A stretch of DNA of 22,375 bases from a virus (IMGVR_UViG_3300031251_000111:1-22375), one strand, 5' to 3'. Positions 2,228 to 19,129 are shown, counted from the stretch's first letter. Notes: generated by a model not told the origin, from the letters alone. A program made the numbers and translations.

Positions 2228-4201
2228 TTACGCATCCCGAGTGAAGGTCCAGGACTCGTCGGCATTCTCGGTGAAGAAGTGGCCAGTGGCCGGAGTAGCC
2301 GTGATGGTAACGGAGGTGCCGGCGGCGATAGCAGCGTAAGGCGAGCCAGCGTTGTTGACCACGGTGGTGCCGTTCTTGTACACGACGCCGGAGGTGTCGT
2401 TGATGGTAAGAACACCAGTGGCCGGGTTGAAGGACGGAGCAGCAGGCGTCACCAGGGTCTGACCAGAGGCCTGGGCAACGACCACGAGGGCCGAACGAGG
2501 CTTGACCAGAGCGCCCGAGCAACGGGTCTCCATCAGGTACTTCATGTTGTTGTAGTCGATGTCGAAGAAGTCAAACATGTTGACCTCTCCACCCTTGTCG
2601 GTGCCGAAGACGTAGTCCACGGGGTTGACCAGAATGGCCAGCCACGGGGTGTTCTCCATGGCCTCGACAGGAACGACCGACGAAACACGAAGCTCAGTAG
2701 CCACCTCATCCAGCGACGCATAGATACGCCGACCGGTGGTGTCCTTGAGCATCAGGAACTGAGCGATGACCGTCTCGGTCGTGAACATTGTCGGCAGACC
2801 AGTACCTCGGTACTGCCAACGGTTGAACACGATGGCGTCGATGATCTCGCTCGCAGACGAACCCGAGTCATTGAGCTGCACGTTGATGGTCGTCGTGAAC
2901 AGCTCGTTATCAGTGGCAATCGGACGAATGCACTGCTCATCGATCTTGTCCTCGTTGGAAATATCCCGACCATCGCCGAACAGAGCCGCACGAGCGACTT
3001 CCTCGTCCAGCATGACTCGCATCTCGGTCTGAAGCCACGTGATCACATCGAAATCGGTGATGTCAATGATGTCGTCACGATCGATCTTCTGCTTCTTGTA
3101 GACCGTGGTAGGAACAGTGGTACGCTTAGCAACAGCGAAGAACTCTTCCTTCTTGAGCGAACCAGTAATATAACCCTTGGCTCGGGCCTCATCCTCGGTG
3201 ATGTCTGCCGAGATCGTCTTGATCCGAGCAAACGGGCTCTTACGAGCAGCGCCGAGGAAAGTGGCAACCCACTCAACTCGACGACCGACAAAGTCAGGCT
3301 GGTCGTTGACCAGACGAGCCTCAGGGAACATCTCACCGATGTTCTCGATGCCATGAGCAAGAGCGTACTCTTCGACGGCGTGCTTAAGCGAACCCTGCCG
3401 CTTAGCCATACCGACAATCTCAGTCAAGGCGTCATGCGACAGAACCTCGGTCTTGTTCTCGGGGCTCTGATCGAAAACGTTGTGCTTCATTGAGTTATTT
3501 CCTTCCGTGTCGCCATGAGAGGCATCGTTAGAGTTACTACCAGCATCATCGGCGTCAGGCTCCTGGCTAGCAAGCGCCTCTCCGATCATGTAATCAACTA
3601 CGGTCTTCTGCTCATCGGTCAGTGAATCATAGACGTCCTGAACGGTAGCGTCTGGACCAAGATCATCGTGAGAGATTTCATCGTCGTCATCATCGTCGTC
3701 GATTTCGATCTCGTCGTCATCATCGTCATCAGAGGGGTAGTCAGAATGCTCCAACTCGAGACCGGTCGTGATAATGGCCTCGTCAACCTCTTCAACCTCG
3801 CCATCGGAGTGCGCAATAGTCACGTTTTCGATAAGCGCACCAGGATTGGCGCCGGAAAGCACCAAACTCAGCTCACGAATCTGACCATGAATAACGCTCT
3901 TCGACCGCTCAATAAGCTGGTTGGCCCAAATAGACAGGGCGTTGATGTCCTTGTGCTCGACCAGACCCTTGGCGTGAACCGCCTTGGCCGAGTTGTTGAA
4001 GAAGCCATAGGCGTAAACGCCTTCCGGACGATTCTCCAGAATTGCATGCCCGAGAACGTTCTCGGGATCGCTGTGCCCATGCTGCCAGACAAGAGGAACT
4101 CGAGCCTGGTCCTGATGCTGGAACGCATTAGGCATGATGGTGCGACCGTCGGAGCACTTAAGCCCCGCCTTAGTCGCCCAACCACTGAAATCTGCTTCCA
4201 T
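2228..4201 (-). CDS. Prohead protease fused to major capsid protein
   Basis: One 657-codon frame with AAAGGA upstream of the ATG. Residues 1-130 look like the HK97 U35 prohead protease: WQHGHS at 39-44 (candidate catalytic His), and RELSLVLSGANPGA near 109-122 (candidate Ser region). Residues of about 150-235 are a highly acidic Asp-run linker that may act as scaffold. Residues of about 238-580 resemble an HK97-fold major capsid protein (GRRVEWVATFLGAARKSPFA, LDEEVARAALFGDGRD, ending in ETRCSGALVKPRSALVV). Residues of about 585-657 are an Ig-like surface domain ending ESWTFTRDA. Protease and capsid are usually separate genes, so the single frame is notable. An internal start at 3490 could also give a capsid-only product of 420 residues. 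Confidence 0.92.
   Translation of the reverse strand: MEADFSGWATKAGLKCSDGRTIMPNAFQHQDQARVPLVWQHGHSDPENVLGHAILENRPEGVYAYGFFNNSAKAVHAKGLVEHKDINALSIWANQLIERSKSVIHGQIRELSLVLSGANPGALIENVTIAHSDGEVEEVDEAIITTGLELEHSDYPSDDDDDDEIEIDDDDDDDEISHDDLGPDATVQDVYDSLTDEQKTVVDYMIGEALASQEPDADDAGSNSNDASHGDTEGNNSMKHNVFDQSPENKTEVLSHDALTEIVGMAKRQGSLKHAVEEYALAHGIENIGEMFPEARLVNDQPDFVGRRVEWVATFLGAARKSPFARIKTISADITEDEARAKGYITGSLKKEEFFAVAKRTTVPTTVYKKQKIDRDDIIDITDFDVITWLQTEMRVMLDEEVARAALFGDGRDISNEDKIDEQCIRPIATDNELFTTTINVQLNDSGSSASEIIDAIVFNRWQYRGTGLPTMFTTETVIAQFLMLKDTTGRRIYASLDEVATELRVSSVVPVEAMENTPWLAILVNPVDYVFGTDKGGEVNMFDFFDIDYNNMKYLMETRCSGALVKPRSALVVVAQASGQTLVTPAAPSFNPATGVLTINDTSGVVYKNGTTVVNNAGSPYAAIAAGTSVTITATPATGHFFTENADESWTFTRDA
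3488..3506 (-). promoter_or_regulatory. Internal ribosome-binding site and start for a capsid-only product
   Basis: On the minus strand, GGAAGGAAATAACTCAATG places an AAGGA site nine bases before an in-frame ATG at 3490 (MKHNVFDQSPENK). This lies at the junction between the acidic linker and the capsid domain. Initiation here would give a 420-residue capsid protein without protease. Such an arrangement would keep the protease at low copy against many capsid subunits. Use of the site is inferred. Confidence 0.6.
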
Positions 4202-4227: not shown

Positions 4228-5481
4228 TTAAGCCTGTGGAGTGTCTGTTGGAATGTCCGGTTCTTCTGGTTCCGTGCCATCCGGTTGACTCGCCTTCGGG
4301 TTGATGTTACTATTGACCAAGAGATCGGCCTTGGGGTCATTAGATGGAGAGATCCCCATGAAGTCTCGAATCTCGTTTGCCGACAGAATCTCGTTACGAG
4401 AGAACTTGTCTGCGATAACGGCGAGATTGGTCATAGGAGTAAACTTGAATGGGTTCCTAAAGTACCGAATTCTCTCTTCAGACGTATACCCAGAGATCCC
4501 GAGGAACGCCCTCTGCATGCCCTCAATGATTGAATCGAGAATTGGCTCAATAGTCCTACTGTAGTAGTTGTTCATGGCGTTGTCGTCGGCGGTTCCATTC
4601 ATCACCGCTTCCGTAAGACCCAACTGACCGTAAAGCATTTGAGTCAGGTATTCGATTTGGGTCATAAGATTGTTGTCTGCTGGACGATTAAGCTGAGTGA
4701 CTTTTTCGGTTCCATCAGTATAGGCAATACCGTACTGACTTCCCTTCAACTGAAACTCGATGTCCTCTCGACGCTTCTCTGCTTGCTGACGTCGAGCCTC
4801 ACTCTTAATCGTATACGGAAGCTGAATGATTAGATCCAACTTCCCAGAACTTGATTGCTCATCAACAGCATCAAGAAGATTCAGTTTCCTGATCAGACGC
4901 TGAAGCGTTGAGTTTGGTTCGTTCATCACCGAATAGAATGGATTTTCAACGATAGCCACGATGCGCTTTTCAAGCACAATGCTTTCTTGAACGCCAGTAG
5001 CCTCGTTATACAACATCACACGAACGTGTTGCGGATACCACTGAACAACACTACCCACACGAAGAGAATAGATATCTACAGTAGCACTAGTTTCAGGATC
5101 TACTGAAGTATCCACCGGCACAATTGCTGCAACACCCTTATCGATTAATGTGGTTGCGATGTTCTGCCTGAACGACCTTGGGCTCTGGTCCATGTTCGGC
5201 TCAAACTGTAAACAATTATTGAGTGAACTATCCTTATCTTTAGCGTATCGACCAGTGTCATCCAACACGATCTGCTTGATCGGAATGGCAGCGACGTCCA
5301 CCGCTAAACGATTGTAAATTGCAGCAGCAATAGTACGTTCGCTAGAATACCGAAGACGAGGTGTGTATGGCATAACGCTTGAGGTTGGGCCCATGTTGTA
5401 CGTGCTCTGGCCAGGCGTGTCTTCCTGCCCCGAAGAACGAAAGGCGTTCCAAGCATTTAAAACTCTATTAAATATAGCCAT
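4228..5481 (-). CDS. Portal protein (HK97 family)
   Basis: This is a 417-residue protein starting MAIFNRVLNAWNAFRSSGQE, with a strong AAGGAGGTGA site. Portal features include YSSERTIAAAIYNRLAVDVA near residues 45-65, a central QLKGSQYGIAYTDGTEKVTQL, and YLTQMLYGQLGLTEAVMNGTAD followed by YYSRTIEPILDSIIEGMQRA. These give the usual helical stem and crown order. A Pro/Glu-rich tail ends the protein. Portals form the dodecameric ring through which the terminase pumps DNA. Its place directly upstream of the protease-capsid gene is the standard one. Confidence 0.93.
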   Translation of the reverse strand: MAIFNRVLNAWNAFRSSGQEDTPGQSTYNMGPTSSVMPYTPRLRYSSERTIAAAIYNRLAVDVAAIPIKQIVLDDTGRYAKDKDSSLNNCLQFEPNMDQSPRSFRQNIATTLIDKGVAAIVPVDTSVDPETSATVDIYSLRVGSVVQWYPQHVRVMLYNEATGVQESIVLEKRIVAIVENPFYSVMNEPNSTLQRLIRKLNLLDAVDEQSSSGKLDLIIQLPYTIKSEARRQQAEKRREDIEFQLKGSQYGIAYTDGTEKVTQLNRPADNNLMTQIEYLTQMLYGQLGLTEAVMNGTADDNAMNNYYSRTIEPILDSIIEGMQRAFLGISGYTSEERIRYFRNPFKFTPMTNLAVIADKFSRNEILSANEIRDFMGISPSNDPKADLLVNSNINPKASQPDGTEPEEPDIPTDTPQA

Positions 5482-5504: not shown

Positions 5505-6095
5505 TCACCTGACGCCCATCTTTTTGAATTGCCTGCTCAAGTTCACCGCATTAGCCTGTCGCTTTGCCTCACTAAATGCCACCTTAGAAAGACGGCTTAC
5601 ATGGGCTCTGACCTTCGGGTTTAGCGCTGCAGTGCCAATGGCCGCCCCGGCAATAGTTACAGGCGCCCCGGTTTGAAGCACAGTATTTTTTACCCCTCTT
5701 GCCGTTTTTGCAGTGCTATTCTTAACGTCTTTACGTCGACGCTCAGCCTGAGCCTTGGTTGCATGATCCGCCAAGTTCTGATTAGCCAAATGATGATCAA
5801 ACGCCTTCTTATAGTCTGGGCGAACTTTACTCTTACCCTCGACCTTATTCTTGATCAGCTTGCGACGAGTCCCGGCTCCTTGCCCGTAAAAAAGCTTGGC
5901 TCGAGCAAACTCTTTAGCGTCCTTCTTGGCTTCACGATTAACCTTATTCGACACGTCAGGGTGATAATCATTTCTAATGCCCCACTTCATTCCCTTGACG
6001 CCGTGATGCTCGAAATACGCATCGATCTCCGAATGAGAAAGACCCTTTTCTTCTAGCATCGTTCCAAGAATATGAATGTCTTTATCCTTTAACAC
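5505..6095 (-). CDS. EHHGVKGMKWG-tagged basic head-module protein A
   Basis: This is a 196-residue protein with a GTG start overlapping the upstream gene by 14 bases and a GAGGA site. Residues 19-43 read GLSHSEIDAYFEHHGVKGMK then WGIRN, a tag shared with the next two tagged proteins. The rest is rich in Lys and Arg: FARAKLFYGQGAGTRRKLIK, then AFDHHLANQNLADHATKAQA, then RRRKDVKNSTAKTARG. A short hydrophobic Ala/Gly segment near 143-160 (VTIAGAAIGTAALNP) follows. The motif set recurs in head modules of many siphoviruses of Gram-positive hosts. I know no tested function. A DNA-binding internal virion or assembly protein is a guess from charge and position. Confidence 0.85.
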   Translation of the reverse strand: MLKDKDIHILGTMLEEKGLSHSEIDAYFEHHGVKGMKWGIRNDYHPDVSNKVNREAKKDAKEFARAKLFYGQGAGTRRKLIKNKVEGKSKVRPDYKKAFDHHLANQNLADHATKAQAERRRKDVKNSTAKTARGVKNTVLQTGAPVTIAGAAIGTAALNPKVRAHVSRLSKVAFSEAKRQANAVNLSRQFKKMGVR

Positions 6096-6870
6096 GGGCG
6101 ATCCTCGCTAACGTACGTGGATCATCGGGGCCGTATTTGTTAAGAACCTCCATATCGCTCATTTTACTAAGTGGCTTTGTGGAAGTTTTTCCAGACGCAA
6201 GCTGCTTTACTCGTTTAGCATACTGAGAATTCACGGTCTTGCTAATGGCTTGGTTTTCGGCCCTAGTGGGTCGTCTTCCATGCTTAGTATAGATGGCCGT
6301 TTGCATTTTAGTAACCTGGTTAGCTGCTTCATTACGAGCTTGCATCTTATGCGCTCTTGTCGGCTTCGGAGTTGCCATAGGAATTGGCTTAGGTTTAGGG
6401 CCTGGGCTCCCAGGAGGACGAACCGGCTTTGCGATCTGGTAGTAGTTGATGGCAGCAAGTGGTGTTCCCAAAACTCCAGCCGCAACAAGTTTAACAGTGA
6501 ATGCCGTCCCACTCTGTGTCTTTTTAGCCAACGGGGACTTCGGGTCTAACGGCTTAGCTATAGTATTGTATAAGGTATCGCCAATACCAGGAAGAATGAT
6601 TGCAGCGGCGACACGCTTTACATTTCTAGCGGATCGAGACTGATACCTTCCCCCAGTTCCAGAAGCAGTTCGACCTTGCCTATTAAAACCGGGGTGATTT
6701 TTGTAAGCCTTACCAGCTAAAACGCCGTCCACCCTATTCTTAGCGTTACGAATACCCCACTTCTGGCCTTTAACGCCGTGATGCTCGAAATATGCGTCGA
6801 TCTGTGCGTGCGAAAGCCCAGCAGCCTCCAGATCTTGACCAACGGCTAGATACTGTTCATCTGTAAGCAT
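6082..6870 (-). CDS. EHHGVKGQKWG-tagged basic head-module protein B
   Basis: This is a 262-residue protein. Its first 42 residues closely match those of the 196-residue neighbour (GLSHAQIDAYFEHHGVKGQK then WGIRN), also at the DNA level, which points to tandem duplication of the tag. The body is basic (GRTASGTGGRYQSRSARNVK). It has hydrophobic stretches near residues 85-105 and 125-145, then a Pro/Lys-rich linker (PPGSPGPKPKPIPMATPKP) and a Lys-rich C-terminus. The start has GAAAGGT upstream. Function is unknown. The tag plus position between the portal and large terminase suggests a minor head or ejected protein. Confidence 0.83.
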   Translation of the reverse strand: MLTDEQYLAVGQDLEAAGLSHAQIDAYFEHHGVKGQKWGIRNAKNRVDGVLAGKAYKNHPGFNRQGRTASGTGGRYQSRSARNVKRVAAAIILPGIGDTLYNTIAKPLDPKSPLAKKTQSGTAFTVKLVAAGVLGTPLAAINYYQIAKPVRPPGSPGPKPKPIPMATPKPTRAHKMQARNEAANQVTKMQTAIYTKHGRRPTRAENQAISKTVNSQYAKRVKQLASGKTSTKPLSKMSDMEVLNKYGPDDPRTLARIARVKG

Positions 6871-7321: not shown

Positions 7322-9073
7322 TTACTCGAATGCTTCCTTATTTGCCTTATAGGCGACATATGCATCCATCAGAGCAGACACATTATCAATCTTCTCATCC
7401 GCACGCTTCTTCAAAAGCTTACGGTTACCATTAGTATCTTCTAATGTAATAGCGTTGCCCATAGCAAACGACATCAGCTCCTGGTCGAATATGAGAATTC
7501 TTTCTTCACTAAGAATTTTCAATTCCCCAAGAGGAACAGACTCGGTCTTAGCTCCCTGAATAACCTTCTCAATGCCATAAGGACCGTTCTCCTGTTCCCA
7601 GCGAGTAACGAACTCCTTGGCATTGTAGGGGTCGAAACCAAGACAACGAACGTCCATCTCCTGCTCTAATATAAACGCATCTAGATCTTCATAGACCTCC
7701 ATCATGTCAAGAATATTGCCTTCGAGAATCTGTAAACTCCCCTCGGCAATAAACTCGTCATACTTGATGCGCATAGCGGCAGGGAGACGTAGTAGAGTTA
7801 GAGATGTAATATAGCTTCTGGTCTTTACGCCAAACGCCCCATTGGATAGCGGAAATAAGAAAGTAAATGCACAGAAGTCGTCTCCTTGCGATAGGTCAGC
7901 ACCTAAAGCGCAAGGTAATCCCCAAAACTCCCTTGACGAATGAGGAAGAGTTTCTTCGTATGTGAAGAAATATGTGTACCCTTCCATAGGAATGCCAAAC
8001 CGCTTCGCCAGAATATCATTACGAGAAGCAGGAGCTTTCTCTGCTCTTTCTACTTCTAGATGATAGACGTCATACGTTACCGTTTGCCCAAGATTAGGAT
8101 TGGCCTTTAACCATGTCGCTGGGTCAGCAACTTCTTCCAAATCATCAAGTTTGTAATGCCAGATCGAAACGTGTGGTGCTTGGTAGTCTCCACGAAGGAT
8201 ACTGGCCAGCTCCATCTTGATCGTGTCACCAGAGCCATTACGAACCGTACCTTCAGAGCTGATCGCTACAATTAAGTAATCGTCCAACTTGGAGGCGCCC
8301 TGCTCGATAGCCCCGACAACGTCCTCTCGAATATCACCAGATAGCCACTCATCAATAGTGGAGATCTTAGGGCGAAGGCCTTGAAGCTTGTTGATCGACA
8401 TAGGACGGATCTCAAGAAGAGAACCAGTTAAGAAGTTCTCAACGCCCTTCTTGGTAGACGCCAGCTTTACTCGGTTCGCCTTTGAACCGGTAGTATTCTG
8501 CAAAGAACCTTCAGTAAGAAACTTGAATAGCGGACCACGAGATCTAGTGAGCGAGGTTCGAAACGGAGACATTACTTCGTCTGCCTGTTTCATTGTTGGT
8601 GCAGTAGTAATCTGATGAGTTGTCGAGGTGTCAATGTTTAGAAAATATGCATGAATGCACATTGCATACATAGACTTCGCCGCCCCTCGAGCAACGATCA
8701 AATACTGCTTTGTGGTCAGCCTTTTTCTTACAGTTCTCTTTACAAATCTTCCAGGCGATCCGTCTTTTCCTGGTTGATAAACGCTGCGTTCAACGTAATA
8801 GTACCACCCAAATATCTGCTCGGCCCACACCTTGAATGTATCTAGCAAATATAGGTCACTGCCATCAGTCAGAGTTAATTCGTTTTCGCAGTACTTGATG
8901 AAACCCTCAACGGCGTTTATGTCGTAATAAATATTAGGGTTTGCAATCAGTGCGTCGATCCGATTCATCTCCATGCTGATTTCCCGGTTTACTGGAATAT
9001 CACCACGAAGTACGGATTCTCTAAACTCGCCATAGTATTTAGGGGTTGCTTTGTTTTGAAGAGCTAATGCCAC
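7322..9073 (-). CDS. terL: Terminase large subunit (packaging ATPase and nuclease)
   Basis: This is a 583-residue protein. I chose GTG at 9073 because AAAGGAGG lies six bases upstream; the TTG two codons earlier abuts the site. The ATPase domain shows a Walker A of the form ARGAAKS (about 128-134) and Walker B ISTIDE (about 237-242). The nuclease domain shows ALGADLSQGDD (Asp near 393), CLGFDPYN (Asp near 481) and KIDNVSALMDAY (Asp near 563), the expected acidic metal ligands. The length suits a Terminase_1/HK97-type enzyme. It cuts and pumps concatemeric DNA through the portal. It lies several genes away from the probable small subunit, which is unusual. Confidence 0.95.
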   Translation of the reverse strand: MALALQNKATPKYYGEFRESVLRGDIPVNREISMEMNRIDALIANPNIYYDINAVEGFIKYCENELTLTDGSDLYLLDTFKVWAEQIFGWYYYVERSVYQPGKDGSPGRFVKRTVRKRLTTKQYLIVARGAAKSMYAMCIHAYFLNIDTSTTHQITTAPTMKQADEVMSPFRTSLTRSRGPLFKFLTEGSLQNTTGSKANRVKLASTKKGVENFLTGSLLEIRPMSINKLQGLRPKISTIDEWLSGDIREDVVGAIEQGASKLDDYLIVAISSEGTVRNGSGDTIKMELASILRGDYQAPHVSIWHYKLDDLEEVADPATWLKANPNLGQTVTYDVYHLEVERAEKAPASRNDILAKRFGIPMEGYTYFFTYEETLPHSSREFWGLPCALGADLSQGDDFCAFTFLFPLSNGAFGVKTRSYITSLTLLRLPAAMRIKYDEFIAEGSLQILEGNILDMMEVYEDLDAFILEQEMDVRCLGFDPYNAKEFVTRWEQENGPYGIEKVIQGAKTESVPLGELKILSEERILIFDQELMSFAMGNAITLEDTNGNRKLLKKRADEKIDNVSALMDAYVAYKANKEAFE

Positions 9074-9092
9074 TAGCAACCTCCTTTGTCTA

Positions 9093-9563
9093 CTATGGCG
9101 CAGCCGCAGCGGCAGCGGAGATGGTTTTAATTACGGTGTCCCCGTGCTTATTGAAAAACTCTTGAGTGATTCTTTGTCGACGACTACGACGGTCGGTCTT
9201 CTTAACCAGAGCATGGAATTGCTGCTCCATGTTCATACGTTGAATGGCCGCTTGTAGATCCTTATTGCTTAGAACATCGGTTGTGCTTTTCTTAGCAAAC
9301 TGCCTAGAAGCAGCAACATCGACAGCGTCTTTACTAGCAAGTTGTCGTTTGCCACCAACCGTTCTTACAAACTTTCCTGGCTTCTGAGTAGCCGTTACAT
9401 CAGATGCCTTTCGACGCAATTTGCTCGTGGTCGTCTTAGACGTTGTGGTTCGAGTCGATGAGGTATGATCGTTGCGAATGCCCCACTTCTGGCCCTTGAC
9501 GCCGTGATGCTCGAGAATCTCTTCTGGCGTTAAAGCAAAAATATCAGCAATATTAGCCATCAT
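9093..9563 (-). CDS. EHHGVKGQKWG-tagged basic protein C
   Basis: This is a 156-residue protein. Residues 11-31 are LTPEEILEHHGVKGQKWGIR, the same tag as the proteins at 5505-6870. The rest is Thr/Ser/Lys/Arg-rich (TTTSKTTTSKLRRKASD; KKTDRRSRRQRITQEFFNKH) and ends in an Ala run. The start overlaps the connector stop by 11 bases. The second ATG one codon later is an alternative start. The basic, low-complexity body after a conserved tag suggests a nucleic-acid-contacting or internal head protein. Function is unknown. Confidence 0.8.
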   Translation of the reverse strand: MMANIADIFALTPEEILEHHGVKGQKWGIRNDHTSSTRTTTSKTTTSKLRRKASDVTATQKPGKFVRTVGGKRQLASKDAVDVAASRQFAKKSTTDVLSNKDLQAAIQRMNMEQQFHALVKKTDRRSRRQRITQEFFNKHGDTVIKTISAAAAAAP

Positions 9564-10947: not shown

Positions 10948-11502
10948 TTACCAGCTAGAAGCTGCGGTGTCGACGGAGGGAACCGACGCAGGAGCAGGGT
11001 CAGTAGACGGATCATACGGAGCAGGATCGGGAGCCGGAGCAGGATCAGTAGAGGGAAGCGGCGCCGCTACTGGATCGGGCTGAGGAGCAGGAGTTCCAGG
11101 GGGAAACTCTGGATCGACAGCCGGAGCAGGATCAGGCGCAGGGACAGGATCAGGCGCAGGGACAGGATCAGGCGAAGGGATAGGATCAGGAGCCGGAGCA
11201 GGATCGGGAGCAGGGACAGGATCGGGAGCCGGAGCAGGATCAGGCGCAGGGACAGGATCAGGAGCCGGAGCAGGATCAGGCGCAGGGACAGGATCAGGAG
11301 CAGGATCAGGCGCAGGGACAGGATCAGGCGCAGGAGCAGGATCGGGAGCCGGAGCAGGATCAGGCGCAGGGACAGGATCGGGAGCCGGAGCATCCTCTTC
11401 CTCAATCACCTCAGTAATCTCAACAACCTCTTCGACAATCCTGCCATGCGGCGGATCGGTCTGAAGCTCTCCGCCAGACTGAGTGTTCTCAACATCGCTC
11501 AT
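10948..11502 (-). CDS. Pro-Ala-Pro-Asp repeat protein
   Basis: This is a 184-residue protein with AAGGAG upstream. The first 40 residues are acidic (GRIVEEVVEITEVIEEEDAP). Residues 40 to about 150 are an array of PAPDP/PVPDP units, with variants such as PIPSPDP and PAVDPEFPPG. The end is Ser/Asp/Ala-rich. Such rods are extended, rigid spacers in other proteins, for example in surface or cell-wall-spanning regions. No signal peptide or anchor is visible. It sits beside the lysis gene. The repeats at DNA level could change copy number by slippage. Function is unknown. Confidence 0.85.
   Translation of the reverse strand: MSDVENTQSGGELQTDPPHGRIVEEVVEITEVIEEEDAPAPDPVPAPDPAPAPDPAPAPDPVPAPDPAPDPVPAPDPAPAPDPVPAPDPAPAPDPVPAPDPAPAPDPIPSPDPVPAPDPVPAPDPAPAVDPEFPPGTPAPQPDPVAAPLPSTDPAPAPDPAPYDPSTDPAPASVPSVDTAASSW
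11000..11395 (-). repeat. Short tandem DNA repeats encoding the PAPDP array
   Basis: The + strand repeats units such as GGATCAGGCGCAGGGACA and GGATCGGGAGCCGGAGCA, 12-18 bp long, many times over. Units differ at third codon positions (GGA/GGC, TCA/TCG), which suggests amplification followed by drift while keeping the amino-acid pattern. This coding repeat is not a CRISPR, because there are no unique spacers. Confidence 0.85.
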
Positions 11503-12286: not shown

Positions 12287-12733
12287 CTAAAGAAAGAACG
12301 TTATGCTTTGCGTTCCGTACCCGACATAGATCCTATCAAAAGCAATCATTCCAGGAACAACGCCGTCATACGAACCCTTTGGACCGATTGTACAATGCGG
12401 GTTGAATGGATACTGACTAGCGTTCCATCGAGACACAAGCTCACGCATCGACAGAAGTCTTGGCGTCGGTAGTAGTTTAATCACCTCTACCGGATCAGAA
12501 TCATCATCATCTCCGCCGAACTCATCGATTCCAATAGTGCTAAGCGTTATAGATCCTGGGCTAAGAACCGACAACGAATATGCGTCCTTTGCCAGATCGT
12601 TAAACGCCGTGGCACTTAGATCTGGAATCTGACCAGCGTACACAAGTGTCATGTGCGGCAAAGCAATCTTGCACCAATCAGAGTTGATCGGAAGAAGAGC
12701 TAGCATTACTGATTGACTAAAATCTTCAGGCAT
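12287..12733 (-). CDS. 2H phosphoesterase-like protein (2'-5' RNA ligase / cyclic phosphodiesterase superfamily)
   Basis: This is a 148-residue protein with two H-x-T motifs: LPHMTLVYAG (His27, Thr29) and NPHCTIGPKG (His113, Thr115). They are spaced as in the 2H superfamily, where the two motifs face each other in the active site. Members act on 2'-5' bonds, cyclic 2',3'-phosphates or cyclic oligonucleotides. Phage members include the anti-CBASS enzyme Acb1 and RNA-repair enzymes. The acidic loop GGDDDDSDP near 73-81 is additional. The ATG overlaps the end of the DUF6527-like gene by eight bases. The substrate cannot be read from sequence. Confidence 0.8.
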   Translation of the reverse strand: MPEDFSQSVMLALLPINSDWCKIALPHMTLVYAGQIPDLSATAFNDLAKDAYSLSVLSPGSITLSTIGIDEFGGDDDDSDPVEVIKLLPTPRLLSMRELVSRWNASQYPFNPHCTIGPKGSYDGVVPGMIAFDRIYVGYGTQSITFFL

Positions 12734-13085
12734 GGTCGTCGTCCTCGGATAGTTCCGTTACCCAGTCTGGTAAATCAGGCATCGGAACGGATTGGCCAGA
12801 CAATGGATGATCGGAATCACTTAGAAACTCGAAGACGCCGTCTCTCAAAAATGAATGACAACGACAACGGCCTTGTGAAAGGATTGATGGGTGAAGTGTT
12901 GGAGACTCTAAATCTCCGTTCCAATCCCACGATGCTTTCTCAATATCAACTTCAAGATTAACTGGCAGCATGTGAATGCCGTCGTAAAATCCGTTAGGGT
13001 CTGCGGAGACACAACCAGGACAAGAAAACATTAGAGCGTCGTATGTAACACCATGATCAACCACCGTCCTAAGCATTGCTTTCAT
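12726..13085 (-). CDS. DUF6527-like protein
   Basis: This is a 119-residue protein. I prefer the ATG at 13085 because GGAGGT lies five bases upstream; the ATG at 13088 is only two bases away. It shows FSCPGCVSADPN, WDWNGDLESPTLHPSILSQG, CRCHSFLRDGVFEFL and DSDHPLSGQSVPMPDLPDW. This order is characteristic of the DUF6527 family of small phage and bacterial proteins, some of which were once mislabelled as ammonia monooxygenase. Four Cys and a His (CxxC, CxCH) could hold a metal. Function is unknown. It is coupled to the 2H phosphoesterase gene. Confidence 0.75.
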   Translation of the reverse strand: MKAMLRTVVDHGVTYDALMFSCPGCVSADPNGFYDGIHMLPVNLEVDIEKASWDWNGDLESPTLHPSILSQGRCRCHSFLRDGVFEFLSDSDHPLSGQSVPMPDLPDWVTELSEDDDHA

Positions 13086-13088
13086 CAT

Positions 13089-13231
13089 TCACCTCCAGTC
13101 CTTTGCCATCGATCTAAAAACCCGAAAATTTTCACGGAAAAGTACCGCCGGGGCTTTTTTTGGAAGCCAGGCGATGCGCAGGGGGGGTCTGATATGCGAG
13201 GTAGGCCCCCCTACCTTCAATTAAAATAATT
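13089..13231. other. Non-coding region; possible cos/pac packaging site
   Basis: This is one of the longer gene-free stretches outside the 17.6-kb repeat region. It holds a palindrome GAAAATTTTC, a GTACCGCCGGGGCTTTTTTT segment, a seven-G run in GCAGGGGGGGTC, and a 7-bp hairpin AGGTAGG-CCCC-CCTACCT (13,199-13,216). An AT-rich tract lies at 13,217-13,240. It stands upstream of the genes leading to the small terminase and HNH nuclease. A packaging recognition or cut site is a reasonable inference. The hairpin could instead end transcription from the preceding gene, but it lacks a T-tract. Confidence 0.4.
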
Positions 13232-13471
13232 TTAAATTTCTCGAGTCACTCTTTTGTATAAACCTAAAACATTTTCAGAAATAATTTCATCAATCGCATC
13301 TTCATTGGCCTGAAGCTGATCAGCATCTGATAGTTCATCCGATGTCACAGTGATACGAGCGAGGAACGGTAGTGTGTTGTATCCCTTACTCATGTCATAG
13401 GCAAGCCACTCATCGAACTCATCGAACGGCGAGTAAGGATTGTCCACAGTTGTTAGCATTGACTCAACCAT
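13232..13471 (-). CDS. Small acidic protein, unknown
   Basis: This is a 79-residue protein. ATG at 13471 follows AAAGGAGAG and overlaps the stop of the RNAP-like gene by eight bases (ATGGTTGA); two upstream ATGs in frame lack such spacing. The sequence begins MVESMLTTVDNPYSPFDEFD, then EWLAYDMSKGYNTLPFLARI. It is acidic, with an ADQLQANEDAIDEIISENVL helix. Overlap with the large gene suggests translational coupling, and it may be a partner or regulator of that protein. No family was recognised. Confidence 0.8.
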   Translation of the reverse strand: MVESMLTTVDNPYSPFDEFDEWLAYDMSKGYNTLPFLARITVTSDELSDADQLQANEDAIDEIISENVLGLYKRVTREI

Positions 13472-16154
13472 TACTCTCCTTTCCATGTGTCGCTTCATCT
13501 AGAGTGGTGAGTGATACACCAAGTGCGGACGCAACTTCTGCTCTTGTATAACCAGACGCAAGCATCTGCTGTGCTCGTGTAGTCTTAGCAGGAGTCATCT
13601 TGACTGCACGCTTAGGGGTGGCGAGCTTACGAACAACATCTAGGTCGGCCTTGTTTAGAATCTCATTTAGTTTAGTGGTGCTTATAGCACCGGCCTGAAT
13701 GGCTTCCCATTCCTTAGGTGTGATAGTAATCTCTGTACCACGTGCGTTCATGCGGGCACGGGCAGCAGAAAGAGCCTGATACTTTACCTTCTTCTCAGTC
13801 TCATCGTCCATGTTTGGATTAGCTTCACGCACCTGCTTGATGACGGCGCCTGCGATGAGTTGGGCCTGTCGCTCCTGGGGTCTGTTTCTATAAACTAATT
13901 GTAGTTTAGAATTGAGGGAGGATACTTCTGCGGCATACGTTTTACGAGCGCTAGGAGAGTACTTAGCAGGCGGTGTGTTGACTGCTTCTTTCCTAGCCGC
14001 ATCGCCAAGAGCCTTAAGCTTGTTGGAGTGATCAGCATACAGGCGCTCTTGTGGTAGACCAGATGACAGAGTATGAGCATCCTCAGTTTCAGCAAGCGCT
14101 TTAGACTTGATCTGAATTGGTTTAGGAGTGCCGTCTTTGCCAGGTATAGTTCTACCTGTCTCAACATAGACTCTCTTACCAGTTGCCTTATCAATGGGTC
14201 CACCATCTCGTGCTGGTCTTGCTACACGTTCTGGAATACGAACCTCAGCGCCGGCCCTAGAAATTAAAGTGCTTGCTCCAGCACGGGCATTGCCACGATA
14301 CTTCTTATTAAGCTGCGCAATACCGTTAACTCTGGCCGACTCTTTGTAGTTAAGCTCATGCTTCTCTGCATCGATGACCACCATTGAGTGCTTGATCGCA
14401 CGGGTAAGTTCGGATCTTGTAGCACCCATGATCGTCATGTCAGTAATCAGGTTAGAGATAGACCCCATCTCTTGGCCCTTCTGACGAGAAGTCATAACGG
14501 GCATGCCAGGATACTTTGGAAAGGAGGCCTTAGGATCGAAGTCCTTAAGACCTTCTAACGCAGGAGTACTCTTAACTTTGCGGCTACCATTAGGTATAAC
14601 AATAACCGCATCACCATCAAAGTCTGCGCCAGACAAACGCTCTGCTACGGCATGATGAATCCCAATAGCGTCTCGGGCATCGCCCAACAATTTCTTTGCT
14701 TCTGGATTGTTATTGTTAACAGTAAGTTCAGGAATTTCAAAAGTTCCACCATGAGGATGTCGAATCAATACAACCTGTTCACCATTATGGAAGTTAGGCG
14801 CATACACCTCAGTCTCTTTAAGACTATCCATAGGGAGAATAACATGGGTGGCCTGACGAGTATTGATAGCAGCAGCCTTCAGGTGTACCGCAGCCTTAGA
14901 TGTCTCATCCCCAAAAGACTCGAGAAGTTTCTTTCGAACAGCCGGGTTTGTCAACTCGGATAGCCGATTGAATTCCTTTAGTCTTTGCTCATAAGTCATT
15001 GCCAACTGCGAACGAATGAGTGATGGACTCTGCTTAGACAACATCTGAGAAGAAAGATTCTTACTCCAATCTTTCCAGTTACCTTCCTCATTAACGATGT
15101 TCATCACCGAAGTGAGATGTTCATTACCTTTGTCGTCCTTCTCAACAAGCTGACGAGCAATCTGAGATCCGAACGGATTGTTTGGATCTACCTTTCCCTG
15201 ATCATCAGTCTCGAGTTTCTTCATTGCGTCGAGCTTATTACCGGTGTCTTCCTTGTTCGTATTGAACTGAAGATCTACGCCAGGAGGCAGACCATCTTTG
15301 TACATGGCCATGCCTTTAAGGTAGTGCGTGCCATCGACCATGACACGAACTTGAGCATACCTAGCTGAACCTAAAGACACATCCTTAACGCCTGGCCTAA
15401 CAAAGATCACACCATCAGCATTCTTTCCACCTTCTGAACCGTACTTAACTGCGACTCGACTAGAGTCAATGCCCATTGGAAAGTGAATGCCATAGAAAGT
15501 TCGGCCGCCATCATCAGAGAAATTATAGACCTGCTTGATGTTAGCGAGATTCTGCCATGCTTCTTTCTGCGTTGTGCCTGGAGTAGCAAGAATCTTATAG
15601 TTGGTGTATTGTCCGGTGGCAACCTGAGGGCCTTTAACTGAATGGACCTCATACCCTTGTTCTTTAAGAATGGCTAAAGCAGCGCCAAGCTTAGTCGCAC
15701 TAATCCCAATGTGAGTCTCAACACCACTGCCCACATCGACAAACTTCTTCTCATCTACCTGGTTCTTCAACATGTTCGCAGTTGAAAGAAGAACGTCTGC
15801 CTTATCCTTAGCGCCAGGAGCTAGTAAAGAACGAACGTAAGATTCGTTTCTACCAAGACGCTGACCAATAGCAACATTAGACATGCCTTTGTTTCGGTAA
15901 CGCTGAGCAGTGTCAATCTCTGCTTGCTGCTGTTGGTTCTTCGCAATTGTCTTTTGCGCACGAAGTTGAGTAGTCGAAAGTCCAAAGCCCTTAGCAATGT
16001 CTGTTTCCGACATTCCCTTCTTCTTAAGATCCGAAATCATGTTCAAAAACAAACGATTGTGCTCTGGTTCGTCTACTCCAGAACCCCAAGGATATCGACC
16101 ACTACGACGAAGGATGCCATAGTGCTCAAGATATTGCTCTTCGCTGATTAGCAC
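13464..16154 (-). CDS. Two-barrel RNA polymerase-like protein with HTH-like segments and an N-terminal head tag
   Basis: This is an 896-residue protein; GTG start overlaps the previous stop by one base. Residues 4-27 are a variant of the EHHGVKGxKWG tag (EEQYLEHYGILRRSGRYPWG). Residues 48-72 and 86-112 are HTH-like (SETDIAKGFGLSTTQLRAQK; MSNVAIGQRLGRNESYVRSL), as is the C-terminus near 865-890. At 504-516, AERLSGADFDGDA contains DFDGD, the metal-binding signature of RNA polymerase beta-prime. VVLIRHPHGGTFEIPEL lies upstream, where beta-prime has its RAPTLHR segment. Residues 274-298 (DGTHYLKGMAMYKDGLPPGV then DLQFN) resemble the beta-subunit barrel with its catalytic Lys (candidate Lys280). 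Both barrels in one chain recall YonO and QDE-1. Enzyme activity is inferred. Such proteins occur in other phages, generally unannotated. Confidence 0.85.
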   Translation of the reverse strand: MLISEEQYLEHYGILRRSGRYPWGSGVDEPEHNRLFLNMISDLKKKGMSETDIAKGFGLSTTQLRAQKTIAKNQQQQAEIDTAQRYRNKGMSNVAIGQRLGRNESYVRSLLAPGAKDKADVLLSTANMLKNQVDEKKFVDVGSGVETHIGISATKLGAALAILKEQGYEVHSVKGPQVATGQYTNYKILATPGTTQKEAWQNLANIKQVYNFSDDGGRTFYGIHFPMGIDSSRVAVKYGSEGGKNADGVIFVRPGVKDVSLGSARYAQVRVMVDGTHYLKGMAMYKDGLPPGVDLQFNTNKEDTGNKLDAMKKLETDDQGKVDPNNPFGSQIARQLVEKDDKGNEHLTSVMNIVNEEGNWKDWSKNLSSQMLSKQSPSLIRSQLAMTYEQRLKEFNRLSELTNPAVRKKLLESFGDETSKAAVHLKAAAINTRQATHVILPMDSLKETEVYAPNFHNGEQVVLIRHPHGGTFEIPELTVNNNNPEAKKLLGDARDAIGIHHAVAERLSGADFDGDAVIVIPNGSRKVKSTPALEGLKDFDPKASFPKYPGMPVMTSRQKGQEMGSISNLITDMTIMGATRSELTRAIKHSMVVIDAEKHELNYKESARVNGIAQLNKKYRGNARAGASTLISRAGAEVRIPERVARPARDGGPIDKATGKRVYVETGRTIPGKDGTPKPIQIKSKALAETEDAHTLSSGLPQERLYADHSNKLKALGDAARKEAVNTPPAKYSPSARKTYAAEVSSLNSKLQLVYRNRPQERQAQLIAGAVIKQVREANPNMDDETEKKVKYQALSAARARMNARGTEITITPKEWEAIQAGAISTTKLNEILNKADLDVVRKLATPKRAVKMTPAKTTRAQQMLASGYTRAEVASALGVSLTTLDEATHGKESNG

Positions 16155-16711
16155 TACAGACCCCTTTCTTTAAGCAACTCGATCTTCATGTCAAGTTCGA
16201 CAATACGACTCATGATCCTATCAATCTCAACGGGATCACCTTCCCAAATCTGAACATCTCCGTTTTGGTAGATACGGAATTCCATCTTTATGTCATATGG
16301 ATTCACGTTATACTCTAAACAAAATATAGCTGCATAAACCTCGAGCTGATGAACCGAAGCCGGCGTGGTTCCAGTTTTCAGATCATGAATACGCAACATA
16401 CCACGACGAAACGACAGCGTGTCAGCGTGACCAAAACAATTGTCAGAGTAATATAGCGGCTGTTCAACACTCATCTTGTAGCCGATGCCATCATTCACAT
16501 ATCTAGACAACGTTGGGTCTGCTTTAGAAAGCTTTACGCCAAGTTGAATCGCCGTATGTGCAAGATCATGCAGAGCAGTTCCTCGAGCTGCGGCTCTCTG
16601 CGAAATATAACGAGCTTCTAACTTTTGATCATTGTAGTTGAGCCAATGGTAATAGCTCGGGCTTAGAAAGGAGTGTCTACCTTCTAACGCCGAATGCGAG
16701 TTGAAGTCCAT
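16154..16711 (-). CDS. PD-(D/E)XK nuclease, Cas4/RecB-like exonuclease
   Basis: This is a 185-residue protein with AGAGGT upstream; it overlaps VRR-NUC by 35 bases. It has ARGTALHDLAH (His48), GHADTLSF (Asp97), IHDLKTG (Asp110, Lys112) and HQLEVYA (Gln122, Tyr126). This is the ordered motif set of RecB/Cas4-type nucleases. I see no Cys set for an iron-sulphur cluster, unlike classical Cas4. It probably degrades or processes DNA ends during replication or recombination. It lies between a second nuclease and the RNAP-like gene. Confidence 0.88.
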   Translation of the reverse strand: MDFNSHSALEGRHSFLSPSYYHWLNYNDQKLEARYISQRAAARGTALHDLAHTAIQLGVKLSKADPTLSRYVNDGIGYKMSVEQPLYYSDNCFGHADTLSFRRGMLRIHDLKTGTTPASVHQLEVYAAIFCLEYNVNPYDIKMEFRIYQNGDVQIWEGDPVEIDRIMSRIVELDMKIELLKERGL

Positions 16712-16973
16712 CTAATACCTCTTGCTCGTTCTCCGGAAATATAAACGCAGCAAACGACTCTCTGTCCATCATTTCTACGTAGTACCGTTGGTTAGGCTGC
16801 TCGATAGCATGCCTATTCGCTTTGACTTCTAGCATAGCCCAATGTACGCCATAGAATATAGAAAGATCGGGAACACCTTGTAGGTAGCTCGAATCGTTTT
16901 TCAAAATGATGCAGCCAGGAAACATGCGTTCTAACTTTTTAATAAGACTTGCTTGATACGCAGACTCTCTCAT
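16677..16973 (-). CDS. VRR-NUC domain nuclease
   Basis: This is a 98-residue protein that is essentially one VRR-NUC domain. It starts MRESAYQASLIKKLERMFPG (Glu3), then GVPDLSIFYGVHWAMLEVKA (Asp36, Glu49, Lys51) and QPNQRYYVEMM. These match the E...PD...ExK...Q order of the family, known from FAN1 and many phage stand-alone proteins. Family members cut branched or flap DNA, including Holliday junctions. The ATG has GAGGTGA upstream and follows a weak terminator. It likely works with the adjacent Cas4-like nuclease and the helicase. Confidence 0.92.
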   Translation of the reverse strand: MRESAYQASLIKKLERMFPGCIILKNDSSYLQGVPDLSIFYGVHWAMLEVKANRHAIEQPNQRYYVEMMDRESFAAFIFPENEQEVLDGLQLAFGVRR

Positions 16974-16989
16974 GGCTCACCTCACTCAG

Positions 16990-17013
16990 AAAAAGAAAAG
17001 GGGTGTTCTCCCT
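16990..17013 (-). terminator. Weak Rho-independent terminator before the VRR-NUC gene
   Basis: On the minus strand AGGG-AGAACAC-CCCT is followed by TTTCTTTTT. The stem is only four pairs, so termination may be partial. It lies between the HNH gene and the VRR-NUC gene. The T-tract is good; the stem is not. Confidence 0.45.
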
Positions 17014-17039
17014 ATTACAGTCGGTGTTTTACTGACGAC

Positions 17040-17068
17040 TTTATACTTATTTAGGTTTATACCTATTT
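17040..17068 (-). repeat. Two tandem copies of the GTATAAA element
   Basis: The minus strand reads AAATAGGTATAAACC followed directly by TAAATAAGTATAAA. These are variants of the AAAGTAAGTATAAA element found five times at 17,583-17,855. They lie just after the NUMOD4/HNH gene, so that gene is flanked on both sides by the element. They may be operators, promoters or replication elements. Confidence 0.6.
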
Positions 17069-17069
17069 G

Positions 17070-17567
17070 TTACAGCTTCACCCAATCGAAGATTTGGTAG
17101 GTTGGGAAGGTTGGTACTTTGTTTACAAGCGACATGTACACTTCTTCAAACAGTAGGCCATTAGTGACAGACGCTTCAACCACATCAGAATACAGCAGCC
17201 CACTCTTACGATCTTTAACAGGACCGAGACCAGAATATTGTTCTAGGTGTTGAAACTGTCGCTTGTACTTCCACGCAAACCATCTTGGACGCCAGACTAA
17301 ATTACTAGCATTATTATTTTCCTGATTACCGTCCAAATGCATGGGCGTATCGAAACGCTCGCTGGCACCATCAACGAACGCCTCAGCTACGAGAACTTTT
17401 ACACTTCGTGTGTATTGTCGACTTCCAGATACGAGCCCAACCTTCACACCTCCTTGTTGAGTCAAACTTGTGTTCATCAGACGACCACGATCTTCATTGC
17501 GGACACGACCGTGAGAGCTAACCGAATAGTTTGGGAAATTCTTTATCGTGAGCCACATTTCATCCAT
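17070..17567 (-). CDS. NUMOD4/HNH endonuclease, probably homing type
   Basis: I take the ATG at 17567 (165 residues) because CGGAG lies seven bases upstream; an upstream in-frame ATG at 17630 would run through a repeat element. Residues 5-24 are WLTIKNFPNYSVSSHGRVRN, a NUMOD4 DNA-binding motif. They are followed by VKVLVAEAFV and HLDGNQENNNASNLVW (about 77-92), an HNH_3-type core. Family members are mobile free-standing endonucleases in phages that cut intronless or related alleles. It is flanked by repeat elements, which fits insertion. The C-terminal half has no recognised domain. Confidence 0.88.
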   Translation of the reverse strand: MDEMWLTIKNFPNYSVSSHGRVRNEDRGRLMNTSLTQQGGVKVGLVSGSRQYTRSVKVLVAEAFVDGASERFDTPMHLDGNQENNNASNLVWRPRWFAWKYKRQFQHLEQYSGLGPVKDRKSGLLYSDVVEASVTNGLLFEEVYMSLVNKVPTFPTYQIFDWVKL

Positions 17568-17582
17568 AAAAATACTCCGAGG

Positions 17583-17787
17583 TTTATACTTACTTTTAGC
17601 ACTTTTTAGGCTTTGGCCAAAAATGGACAAAAACCTTGAAAAACTTTTTTAAAAAGGGGTAGGTTTATACTTACTTTCTCTCGCGCGTACAGAAGAAGTA
17701 GGTATAAAGTGACCATATTTTAAAAAGTTTTTGACTTTTTTTCTCGTTTTTGGCCAAAGCCCGAAATGACCGAAAAGTAAGTATAAA
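17583..17787. repeat. Large imperfect inverted repeat, 205 bp, with a CGCGCG centre
   Basis: Arm 17,583-17,677 and the reverse complement of 17,696-17,787 share four blocks in the same order: TTTATACTTACTTTT, GGCTTTGGCCAAAAA, AAAAACTTTTT and TTTATACyTACTT. All pairs centre near 17,685, inside CGCGCG. The outer blocks match over 14-15 bases. The region lacks genes apart from the HNH upstream sequence. It could be a replication origin, a two-sided regulatory site, or a structure-forming element. Nearby helicase and nuclease genes favour replication. Confidence 0.85.
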
Positions 17788-17840
17788 GAATAGCCGTTTT
17801 TCTGCATAAGCCCAGGTCAGAGGCCTAACGGTCTAAAACA

Positions 17841-17898
17841 TTATACTTACTTTCCGGTCTTACGGAGGGCTAAATCTCTGGCCATTTTTGAAATTCCC
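17841..17898. repeat. Third, degenerate copy of the repeat unit
   Basis: The + strand TTATACTTACTTTCCGGTC, then CGGAGGGCT and TGGCCATTTTTGAAATT, repeats the block order of the 17,696-17,787 arm (TTTATACTTACTTTTCGGTC, CGGGCTTTGGCCAAAAA), but in the opposite orientation in the window. On the minus strand its core reads AAAGTAAGTATAAT, with a perfect TATAAT -10 hexamer. It fills the space up to the helicase stop. Confidence 0.7.
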
Positions 17899-17899
17899 A

Positions 17900-19129
17900 T
17901 CACAAAACCCCATGTTTCTCGTCCATGGACGTCGTGAATTCGTCAAAATATGGAAGGTTTTCATCAGCCCATTTGTTCTCATTAAATGACTCTTTTTTGC
18001 TCAAAGAATTGCGAATTGCTCGGTCCACGGCAGAATTGGCCATAAATGTGAAGTAGTACAAGTCAGAAAAGTAAGTATTAAGTCTATCGATTCTGCCCTG
18101 TGCTTGGTGAAATTGTTTGTACGAATATGTGAGCGAATAGAAGACGATAATGTTCGTTTCTGTACAGTTCCAACCCTCAGATCCGGCTGTGTATTGGACC
18201 AAATATACCCAGCGGTCAGATTTCGGAATAGGCTCATGTTTGTGCCCGTTCCATTCTGCCACCTCAACCAGATCTGCCTTATCGTCGTACAACTCACGCA
18301 AAATATCCAGCTCGTAGTTGAAGTTGTAGAACACGATGATCTTAGGATATCGATCCATAAGACCACGCAACTGCTCGAGCCTTGATCTGTCACCAAACAC
18401 AATCCTACGCAACACAGCAAACATCTCAGACACATCTCGCATTGGGCGATCTTCAAATATGTTCCATCGCTCGTCCTTAGCTTTCTTGAACAAGTCGATG
18501 TCGTAGAACACCCGAACGTCCTGATGATGTCTAACCGCATCGCTCAAATATGGCATTTCTACAAGCACGTCACGTTTGTGTTGTTCCAACGTCTTTACAT
18601 CTAGGTACCGCTCAATTCTCGGGTATCTACTGAATGGTGCATAGACGACATGCTCCCTCTTGAACTGAGTGATGTTCTTGTAGAAACCATTAGCGATGAA
18701 TACCGGCACGTAATCCAGCCAAGTGTCACCCGGCGTCGCCGTGAGTATGAGCCAAGCGTTGCCGCCTTTAACAATCTTATGAAAAGATTTAACCCAAGCT
18801 CCATTCCCCACTAACCTTTGTTCGTCGAAGATGAAGAAGCATCCGGTTCGCTCTTCGTATTTTCCGATGTTGTTCCAGGAATCAACCGTAAGCGTTCCCG
18901 CAAGCGTTGCTTCTGTAGTCTTACCGATTCCGAACTTTGCCGCATCACCTTCCCATTCAAGCGAGTCACGCTTCTTGGCAGTCGTGATGACGATGATTTC
19001 ATCCATCAACTCCTTTTCCATGTAGTAGGCCAGAGCCACGATGCTCTTCCCACTACCAACTCCGCCCCAAAGGATTTTACCGTTACTCAGTCGTTCCAGT
19101 ACTTCCTTCTGATGAGGCCTTAAGTTCAT
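17900..19129 (-). CDS. SF2 helicase (SNF2/DEAD-like ATPase)
   Basis: This is a 409-residue protein. I chose ATG at 19129 because AGGAGG stands seven bases upstream, and MNLRPHQKEVL is the usual N-terminus of such enzymes. Motif I WGGVGSGKS (22-29), motif II FDEQR (101-105), motif III LTATPG (129-134) and motif VI QAQGRIDR (342-349) appear in order with a motif V-like TAGSEGWN near 314-321. It should use ATP to move on double-stranded DNA in replication, repair or recombination. DEQR instead of DEAH is a family variant. The gene start overlaps the upstream gene by 47 bases. Confidence 0.93.
   Translation of the reverse strand: MNLRPHQKEVLERLSNGKILWGGVGSGKSIVALAYYMEKELMDEIIVITTAKKRDSLEWEGDAAKFGIGKTTEATLAGTLTVDSWNNIGKYEERTGCFFIFDEQRLVGNGAWVKSFHKIVKGGNAWLILTATPGDTWLDYVPVFIANGFYKNITQFKREHVVYAPFSRYPRIERYLDVKTLEQHKRDVLVEMPYLSDAVRHHQDVRVFYDIDLFKKAKDERWNIFEDRPMRDVSEMFAVLRRIVFGDRSRLEQLRGLMDRYPKIIVFYNFNYELDILRELYDDKADLVEVAEWNGHKHEPIPKSDRWVYLVQYTAGSEGWNCTETNIIVFYSLTYSYKQFHQAQGRIDRLNTYFSDLYYFTFMANSAVDRAIRNSLSKKESFNENKWADENLPYFDEFTTSMDEKHGVL

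Follow-up and report, generated by a model that had tools for sequence, protein, structure and literature searches.

A predicted single-chain RNA polymerase of a phage carries a variant of a head-module tag and may travel in the virion

The viral DNA stretch IMGVR_UViG_3300031251_000111:1-22375, analyzed over its whole length of 22,375 nucleotides (the window), encodes an 896-residue protein that, judged by its predicted fold, is almost certainly a single-chain two-barrel RNA polymerase (RNAP). The disordered N-terminal peptide of this protein is classed by sequence comparison as a variant of the DUF7211 tag, which also occurs on proteins of the phage head module. As a whole, the observations are best explained by a DNA-dependent RNAP that probably travels inside the virion. 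The family is already catalogued in PHROG and RefSeq, and by its profile match the window protein is a further member; the novelty seems to lie in the polymerase N-terminus rather than in the family. The existing annotation, the N-terminal tag, and a homologue with a virion label were all absent from an earlier reading of the window made without database searches (the sequence-only reading).

Results

Two double-psi barrels in the predicted polymerase

The gene occupies 13464-16154 on the minus strand and starts with GTG. The sequence-only reading had given exactly these coordinates but missed the strand; on the plus strand, the stretch is full of stops and was ruled out as a coding frame. An AlphaFold model built from an alignment of 58 homologues, the set to which all statements on invariance refer, reached a mean predicted local distance difference test (pLDDT) of 79.7 and a predicted template modelling score of 0.59. 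As the earlier reading had anticipated for a structure prediction, double-psi barrels were recovered. The main elements of the polymerase are as follows.

15840..16046, minus strand: N-terminal tandem helix-turn-helix (HTH) region, residues 37-105 (HTH_38, RepB-like; helices in the model)
15084..15479, minus strand: barrel B, beta-like double-psi barrel, residues 226-357 (segment model compared with double-psi beta barrels)
15315..15317, minus strand: Lys280, candidate catalytic lysine, within THYLKGMAMYKDGLPPGVDLQFN (invariant)
14580..14867, minus strand: barrel A, beta-prime-like double-psi barrel, residues 430-525, with RHPHGG and GADFDGD (Pol II alignment, invariant motifs)
14610..14624, minus strand: DFDGD metal-binding motif, residues 511-515 (sequence; invariant)
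14328..14489, minus strand: two long helices after barrel A, residues 556-609 (MG..SNLITDM ... HSMVVIDAEKH; model)
13500..13586, minus strand: C-terminal HTH, residues 857-885 (HTH_23, HTH_7)

The best solved structures found by Foldseek were QDE-1 (E 2e-9), P74 gp62 (E 2.5e-7), and RDR2 (E 5e-7), with the phage RNAP P32 gp64 also among the best matches and crAss gp66 as a weaker one (E 8e-3). In VIA-align, the model superimposes on QDE-1 over residues 225-729 (Z 16.4), in agreement with the proposed order of a beta-like followed by a beta-prime-like barrel in one chain, and on P74 gp62 with Z 13.6. RDR2 and enzymes of the P23-45 gp64 type also match residues 225-729. Residues 425-626 align with the largest subunit of RNA polymerase II (Pol II) at Z ~11.

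Barrel A contains the DFDGD motif at the positions read from the sequence, and VVLIRHPHGGTFEIPEL, the region that had been likened to RAPTLHR, is located upstream of it. D511, D513, and D515 of the motif as well as R465, P467, H468, and G470 of RHPHGG are invariant. Barrel B had been suspected around Lys280. When segment 205-440 was folded alone, the model had very high confidence between residues ~225 and 320 and resembled double-psi beta barrels (DPBBs) at low Z (3.5-4.6), consistently that fold; its partners are QDE-1 681-786, RDR2 525-624, P32 gp64 92-185, and designed DPBBs. K280 lies in this barrel and is invariant, so that the chain presents B before A, with the invariant lysine in B and DFDGD in A. 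The model helices at 556-575 and 580-599 fall inside the stretch aligned to QDE-1 and Pol II, and by this position they are probably the bridge-helix/trigger-loop region.

The HTH-like segments predicted to flank this core exist at both ends. HTH_38 matches residues 78-105 (E 1.4e-5), accompanied by a weaker RepB-like unit at residues 37-70 (E 0.03), and HTH_23/HTH_7 match residues 857-885 (E 4e-6 to 4e-5).

A catalogued family and its template

The protein is a full-length member of PHROG 4291, named 'RNA-dependent RNA polymerase' (residues 3-891 against profile positions 6-907 of 909, 1248 bits), a match well above what chance would give. Homologues occur in 250 public phage records, in 249 of which they cover at least 80% of the protein length, and close relatives on at least 228 IMG/VR contigs; identity to homologues in the phage collection is 59% or less. 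The records belong mostly to Arthrobacter, Gordonia, and Streptomyces phages and usually carry the annotation helix-turn-helix protein, while RefSeq versions name several homologues RNA-dependent RNA polymerase. A Pfam scan of the 896-residue protein recognized HTH families alone. A search of solved structures with the single sequence or a profile gave nothing RNAP-like beyond a beta-prime match at E 2.7, an anti-phage defence library left the RNAP unmatched, and a scan of bacterial species genomes for prophage copies returned one homologue only, in an alphaproteobacterial metagenome-assembled genome. In the literature, no paper testing a PHROG 4291-type polymerase was found. Another contig (G017, 6427-6681, L267) holds a 107-residue open frame that matches RNAP residues ~123-206 only, either a remnant or a stand-alone polymerase piece.

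The database name implies an RNA-templated enzyme that would produce double-stranded or antisense RNA. QDE-1 and RDR2 are indeed the nearest folds, and the Pfam family RdRP (PF05183) matches 22 of 27 homologues, weakly (best E 7e-5). However, the fold does not discriminate between templates, since QDE-1 structures with DNA templates exist, P23-45 gp64 and gp96 and YonO are DNA-dependent (PMC10770324, PMC7481178), and the HTH domains favour a DNA template. We regard RNA templating as very improbable.

The polymerase N-terminus resembles a head-module tag

Residues 1-27 are predicted to be disordered, with pLDDT below 50 in the model. Despite this disorder, H11, G13, R16, S18, G19, R20, Y21, G24, and S25 are invariant, giving the pattern HxG..R.SGRY..GS, and essentially all relatives start with (L/I)xH(Y/E)GxxRxSGRYxxGS.

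16077..16142, minus strand: N-terminal tag, residues 5-26 (EEQYLEHYGILRRSGRYPWGSG; disorder and conservation)

A hidden Markov model (HMM) made from 183 DUF7211-type tag segments (LxHYGVKGMKWGVRR) of non-RNAP proteins finds the N-terminus of all RNAPs searched (76/76), with a top score of 13.3 bits, whereas shuffled or reversed copies did not exceed 1.4 bits. On these comparisons, we class the RNAP peptide (LxHYGxxRxSGRYPWGSG) as a DUF7211 tag variant. A search of open-access papers for DUF7211 or the tag letters matched nothing.

Tagged proteins belong to the head module

The window itself encodes three tagged proteins near the large terminase (TerL) and portal genes, all bearing YFEHHGVKGMKWGIRN or a close variant.

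5505..6095, minus strand: DUF7211-tagged head-module protein (YFEHHGVKGMKWGIRN; PF23847, E 4.6e-8)
6082..6870, minus strand: DUF7211-tagged head-module protein (YFEHHGVKGQKWGIRN; PF23847, E 1.1e-4)
9093..9563, minus strand: DUF7211-tagged head-module protein (ILEHHGVKGQKWGIRN; PF23847, E 1.4e-5)
7322..9079, minus strand: TerL (PHROG 9, E 5e-107)
4228..5481, minus strand: portal protein (PF04860, E 6.5e-19)
2228..4201, minus strand: protease-major capsid fusion (Phage_capsid at residues 334-573)

For the capsid fusion, we infer an N-terminal protease from the labels of 1706 orf10 ('capsid/protease') and ReqiPoco6 gp026 ('prohead protease'). Together with a connector, these head genes make the siphovirus assignment of the sequence-only reading plausible, if only indirectly, and no tail gene was identified in the 22,375-nucleotide window.

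The same arrangement recurs in relatives. In ReqiPoco6, seven tagged open reading frames (ORFs) precede or surround the genes for terminase and portal. The classic tag, searched as a DNA pattern, is present on 25 of 26 long RNAP-bearing contigs, and reversed-pattern controls gave 0. Conversely, a clear RNAP is present on 14 of 20 contigs picked by the tag alone, and a further contig shows a weak and partial match; the remaining five may be incomplete or truly lack the polymerase. On tag-bearing contigs without this RNAP, YonO-type and RdRP-type polymerases were looked for and none was found, so the tag does not need the polymerase. Of 234 tagged ORFs, 233 have a homologue of the window's TerL, portal, capsid, connector, or 2H phosphoesterase-like gene (see below) at a distance of no more than 3 kb, all on the same strand; locus size partly imposes this closeness but not the shared strand.

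When 120 diverse tagged proteins were compared, hardly anything apart from the tag was conserved, and the tag columns had been fixed by the selection. Their recognizable domains are 2H phosphoesterase and 2'-5' RNA ligase (14 and 5 members), papain-fold Gln amidase (8), GNAT acetyltransferase (4), ADP-ribosyltransferase (1), and portal (1). The usual order in the 2H proteins is enzyme domain before tag, with the tag near residue 180; tagged 2H enzymes could act on cyclic-nucleotide defence signals. Combinations of 2H domain and DUF7211 tag were seen at L255, L264, L265, L149, L159, L210, L216, L234, and others, some with two tags. At L254 (5124-6575), a portal 53% identical to that of the window carries the DUF7211 tag at its C-terminus.

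A tag that serves head assembly, for example by docking on portal or scaffold, would account for the grouping of tagged ORFs around TerL, portal, and capsid genes, for the tagged portal, and for the many tagged proteins without a recognizable enzyme domain; the RNAP would then be tagged for assembly-linked regulation and nothing would be injected. Yet most of the tagged proteins that can be recognized are enzymes with no relation to assembly (2H phosphoesterase, GNAT, papain-fold, ADP-ribosyltransferase), and the polymerase has no obvious assembly role, which makes this explanation improbable. A movable peptide that is found on unrelated enzymes, a portal, and a polymerase is better understood as an address label than as a catalytic domain.

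Records linking a polymerase homologue to the virion

In Lactococcus phage 1706, orf75 is a full-length homologue of the RNAP and is recorded as 'structural protein'. The same label is given to 1706 orf7, which bears two tag copies (LQHRGVIGMRWG and LLHKGVKGMKWG). The labels of phage 1706 reportedly derive from virion mass spectrometry by Garneau et al. in 2008. ReqiPoco6 gp106 inherits its 'structural protein' label from 1706 orf75. Moreover, the RNAP gene of relatives adjoins the cos end and the head genes. From these records and the tag, it is rather likely that the window polymerase is carried in the virion.

Neighbouring genes, promoter element and repeats

The RNAP gene is the last of a nuclease-exonuclease-RNAP run and is followed by a conserved small gene.

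17040..17852, no strand assigned: cluster of short phage-specific repeats AAGTAAGTATAAA, in both orientations, around an HNH gene
17012..17019, minus strand: conserved -10-like element (TGTAATAG in the window; TATAATAG type), upstream of the nuclease-exonuclease-RNAP run
16677..16973, minus strand: endonuclease-like gene, first of the run (PHROG 93, E 4e-11), which we take to be of the VRR-NUC type
16154..16711, minus strand: Cas4/RecB-like exonuclease, adjoining the RNAP gene on its upstream side (PHROG 3953, E 6e-72)
13232..13498, minus strand: conserved 88-residue possible partner, immediately downstream of the RNAP gene (LTTVDNPYSPFDEFDEW...GYNT; neighbour conservation)
12287..12733, minus strand: weak 2H phosphoesterase-like protein, untagged, in the late region (2_5_RNA_ligase2, E 0.0012, below the Pfam cut-off; HMTL..HCTI motifs)

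In 20 of 33 testable loci, an ORF of the 88-residue type with the same motif comes after the RNAP gene, and 1706 orf76 looks alike; from this conservation, the small protein is a possible polymerase partner.

In 61 of 78 loci, the pattern T[AGT]T[AG]AT[AT]G is present in sense orientation between about -845 and -918 relative to the RNAP start, compared to 0-1 per sense control block. In the four contigs checked that carry TATAATAG, it is single-copy at the promoter place. The phage-specific repeats occupy the expected -35 position beside the -10-like element. In relatives, repeats are found around this element and ~1.4-1.9 kb upstream, where the place is kept in a subset and the sequence differs between phages: AAACTTCGGGA in 1706 (directly upstream of orf75), ATAGGGTATTAAG in ReqiPoco6, and AAAGTGGCACA in L118. 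We rejected the repeats as dispersed early promoters of the phage RNAP, since all copies are in one place in the near-complete contig G040. They look like operators, iterons, or protein-binding sites rather than early promoters, and suggest that the host RNAP transcribes the polymerase gene. An Rfam scan of 12900-18200 found no RNA families. Separately, the stretch 10948-11502, near the endolysin gene, encodes a protein that consists mostly of a PAPDP repeat (18-nucleotide units).

Discussion

Probable virion delivery and the rival of a non-virion role

Several observations weigh against carriage in the virion or against the tag assignment. The classic tag and the RNAP peptide have the first half (ExYLAHYG) alone in common, the second half being different and longer in the RNAP, and a scan for Pfam DUF7211 (PF23847) that allowed E values up to 1 left the RNAP unmatched; for both reasons, we call the peptide a tag variant and not a DUF7211 member. 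The co-occurrence of tag and RNAP may reflect shared descent of one phage lineage, which is its main alternative explanation. The small 1706 proteins orf62 and orf71, encoded outside the structural region, share the 'structural protein' label, so contaminants are possible among the 1706 labels. Further, a clamp-bearing enzyme of ~100 kDa would need unfolding to pass a narrow siphovirus tail, and the TATAATAG element looks host-type, which suggests that the host RNAP transcribes the polymerase gene itself. The known siphovirus virion RNAP, that of P23-45, is a flat enzyme fused to the tape measure protein (PMC10770324).

These points feed the strongest rival, a non-virion RNAP made in infection for middle or late genes, like YonO or P23-45 gp64, whose peptide would be used otherwise, for instance in partner binding, and whose 1706 label would be contamination. 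The closest phage structures are clamp-bearing non-virion RNAPs of the gp64/gp62 type (PMC10770324), YonO is a single-chain phage RNAP without the tag, the -10 element before the gene run is conserved and host-type, and orf62 and orf71 are labelled as well. Against this stand the invariance of a disordered peptide that matches the tag of head-module proteins, the position of the RNAP gene beside the cos end and head genes in relatives, and the structural label that 1706 gives to both orf75 and the doubly tagged orf7. On balance, we consider a purely non-virion role unlikely and prefer delivery in the virion.

Relation to known polymerases

Other PHROG 4291 members (Rhodococcus ReqiPepy6, Lactococcus 1706 orf75, and many proteins of Arthrobacter, Gordonia, and Streptomyces phages) show no essential difference from the window protein: They share the order HTH, barrel B, barrel A, HTH, the N-terminal peptide, the exonuclease neighbour, and the closeness to the cos end. 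P23-45 gp64 (non-virion) and gp96 (virion) are likewise single-chain two-barrel RNAPs of a siphovirus (PMC10770324). While gp64-type structures are among the best fold matches of the window protein, gp96 provides the precedent for a virion RNAP in a siphovirus (PMC10770324). In contrast to gp96, which is the clamp-less N-terminus of a 5,002-residue tape measure protein (PMC10770324), the window protein is a free chain of 896 residues with HTHs and a tag; its stand-alone ORF is followed by the 88-residue ORF and is not fused to a tape measure.

YonO of Bacillus phage SPbeta (PHROG 8308) is also a single-chain phage RNAP with a DxDGD motif, which reads DNDGD in YonO and DFDGD in the window protein. 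PHROG 8308 covers residues 439-522 of the window protein only, that is, barrel A (E 2.8e-4, 20.5 bits), compared to 1220 bits for YonO itself, and an hhalign profile comparison with YonO was not significant. The tag was searched in YonO and all SPBc2 and is absent, which is compatible with either a virion or a non-virion role. QDE-1 and plant RDR2, the best solved fold matches over both barrels at ~12-14% identity, are eukaryotic RNA-silencing enzymes without HTHs or tag. The two-barrel RNAP gp66 of crAss-like phi14:2 (6vr4) resides in the virion as a 2166-residue chain with another packaging route.

Proposed mechanism

We propose that the polymerase is made during infection from the host-type promoter. 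Barrel B (226-357, with K280) and barrel A (430-525, with DFDGD) would form the active site, with the helices after barrel A serving as bridge helix and trigger loop, and the terminal HTH units probably hold the enzyme on phage DNA. The N-terminal tag would bring the polymerase into the prohead alongside the other tagged proteins, from where it would enter the next cell with the DNA. There, it may transcribe the first phage genes without a host sigma factor, recognizing promoters via its HTHs.

An analogous arrangement is known from T4, where a capsid targeting sequence sends varied enzymes (the internal head proteins Alt and IPs) into the prohead for injection and the prohead protease cleaves the signal. 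The window tag is comparable by analogy only. Extended to the lineage, DUF7211-type peptides could be a modular virion-cargo tag of a large lineage of Gram-positive siphoviruses that loads a stand-alone RNAP and a changing set of enzymes (2H, GNAT, papain-fold, and ADP-ribosyltransferase-like) into the head. This set would then enter the cell along with the genome, where it would initiate transcription and disarm the host. This broader proposal is tentative, and we give it somewhat less than even weight.

N4-like, crAss-like, jumbo, and P23-45 phages are known to have virion RNAPs. For P23-45, the details of virion RNAP packaging remain to be elucidated according to its authors (PMC10770324). 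If a short common tag packages the polymerase, the packaging question would become directly testable in phages of ordinary laboratory hosts. Packaging by such a tag would also account for the unassigned DUF7211 proteins, imply that many actinophages inject a first wave of enzymes, and offer an address label that could be transferred to other proteins to load them into phage heads.

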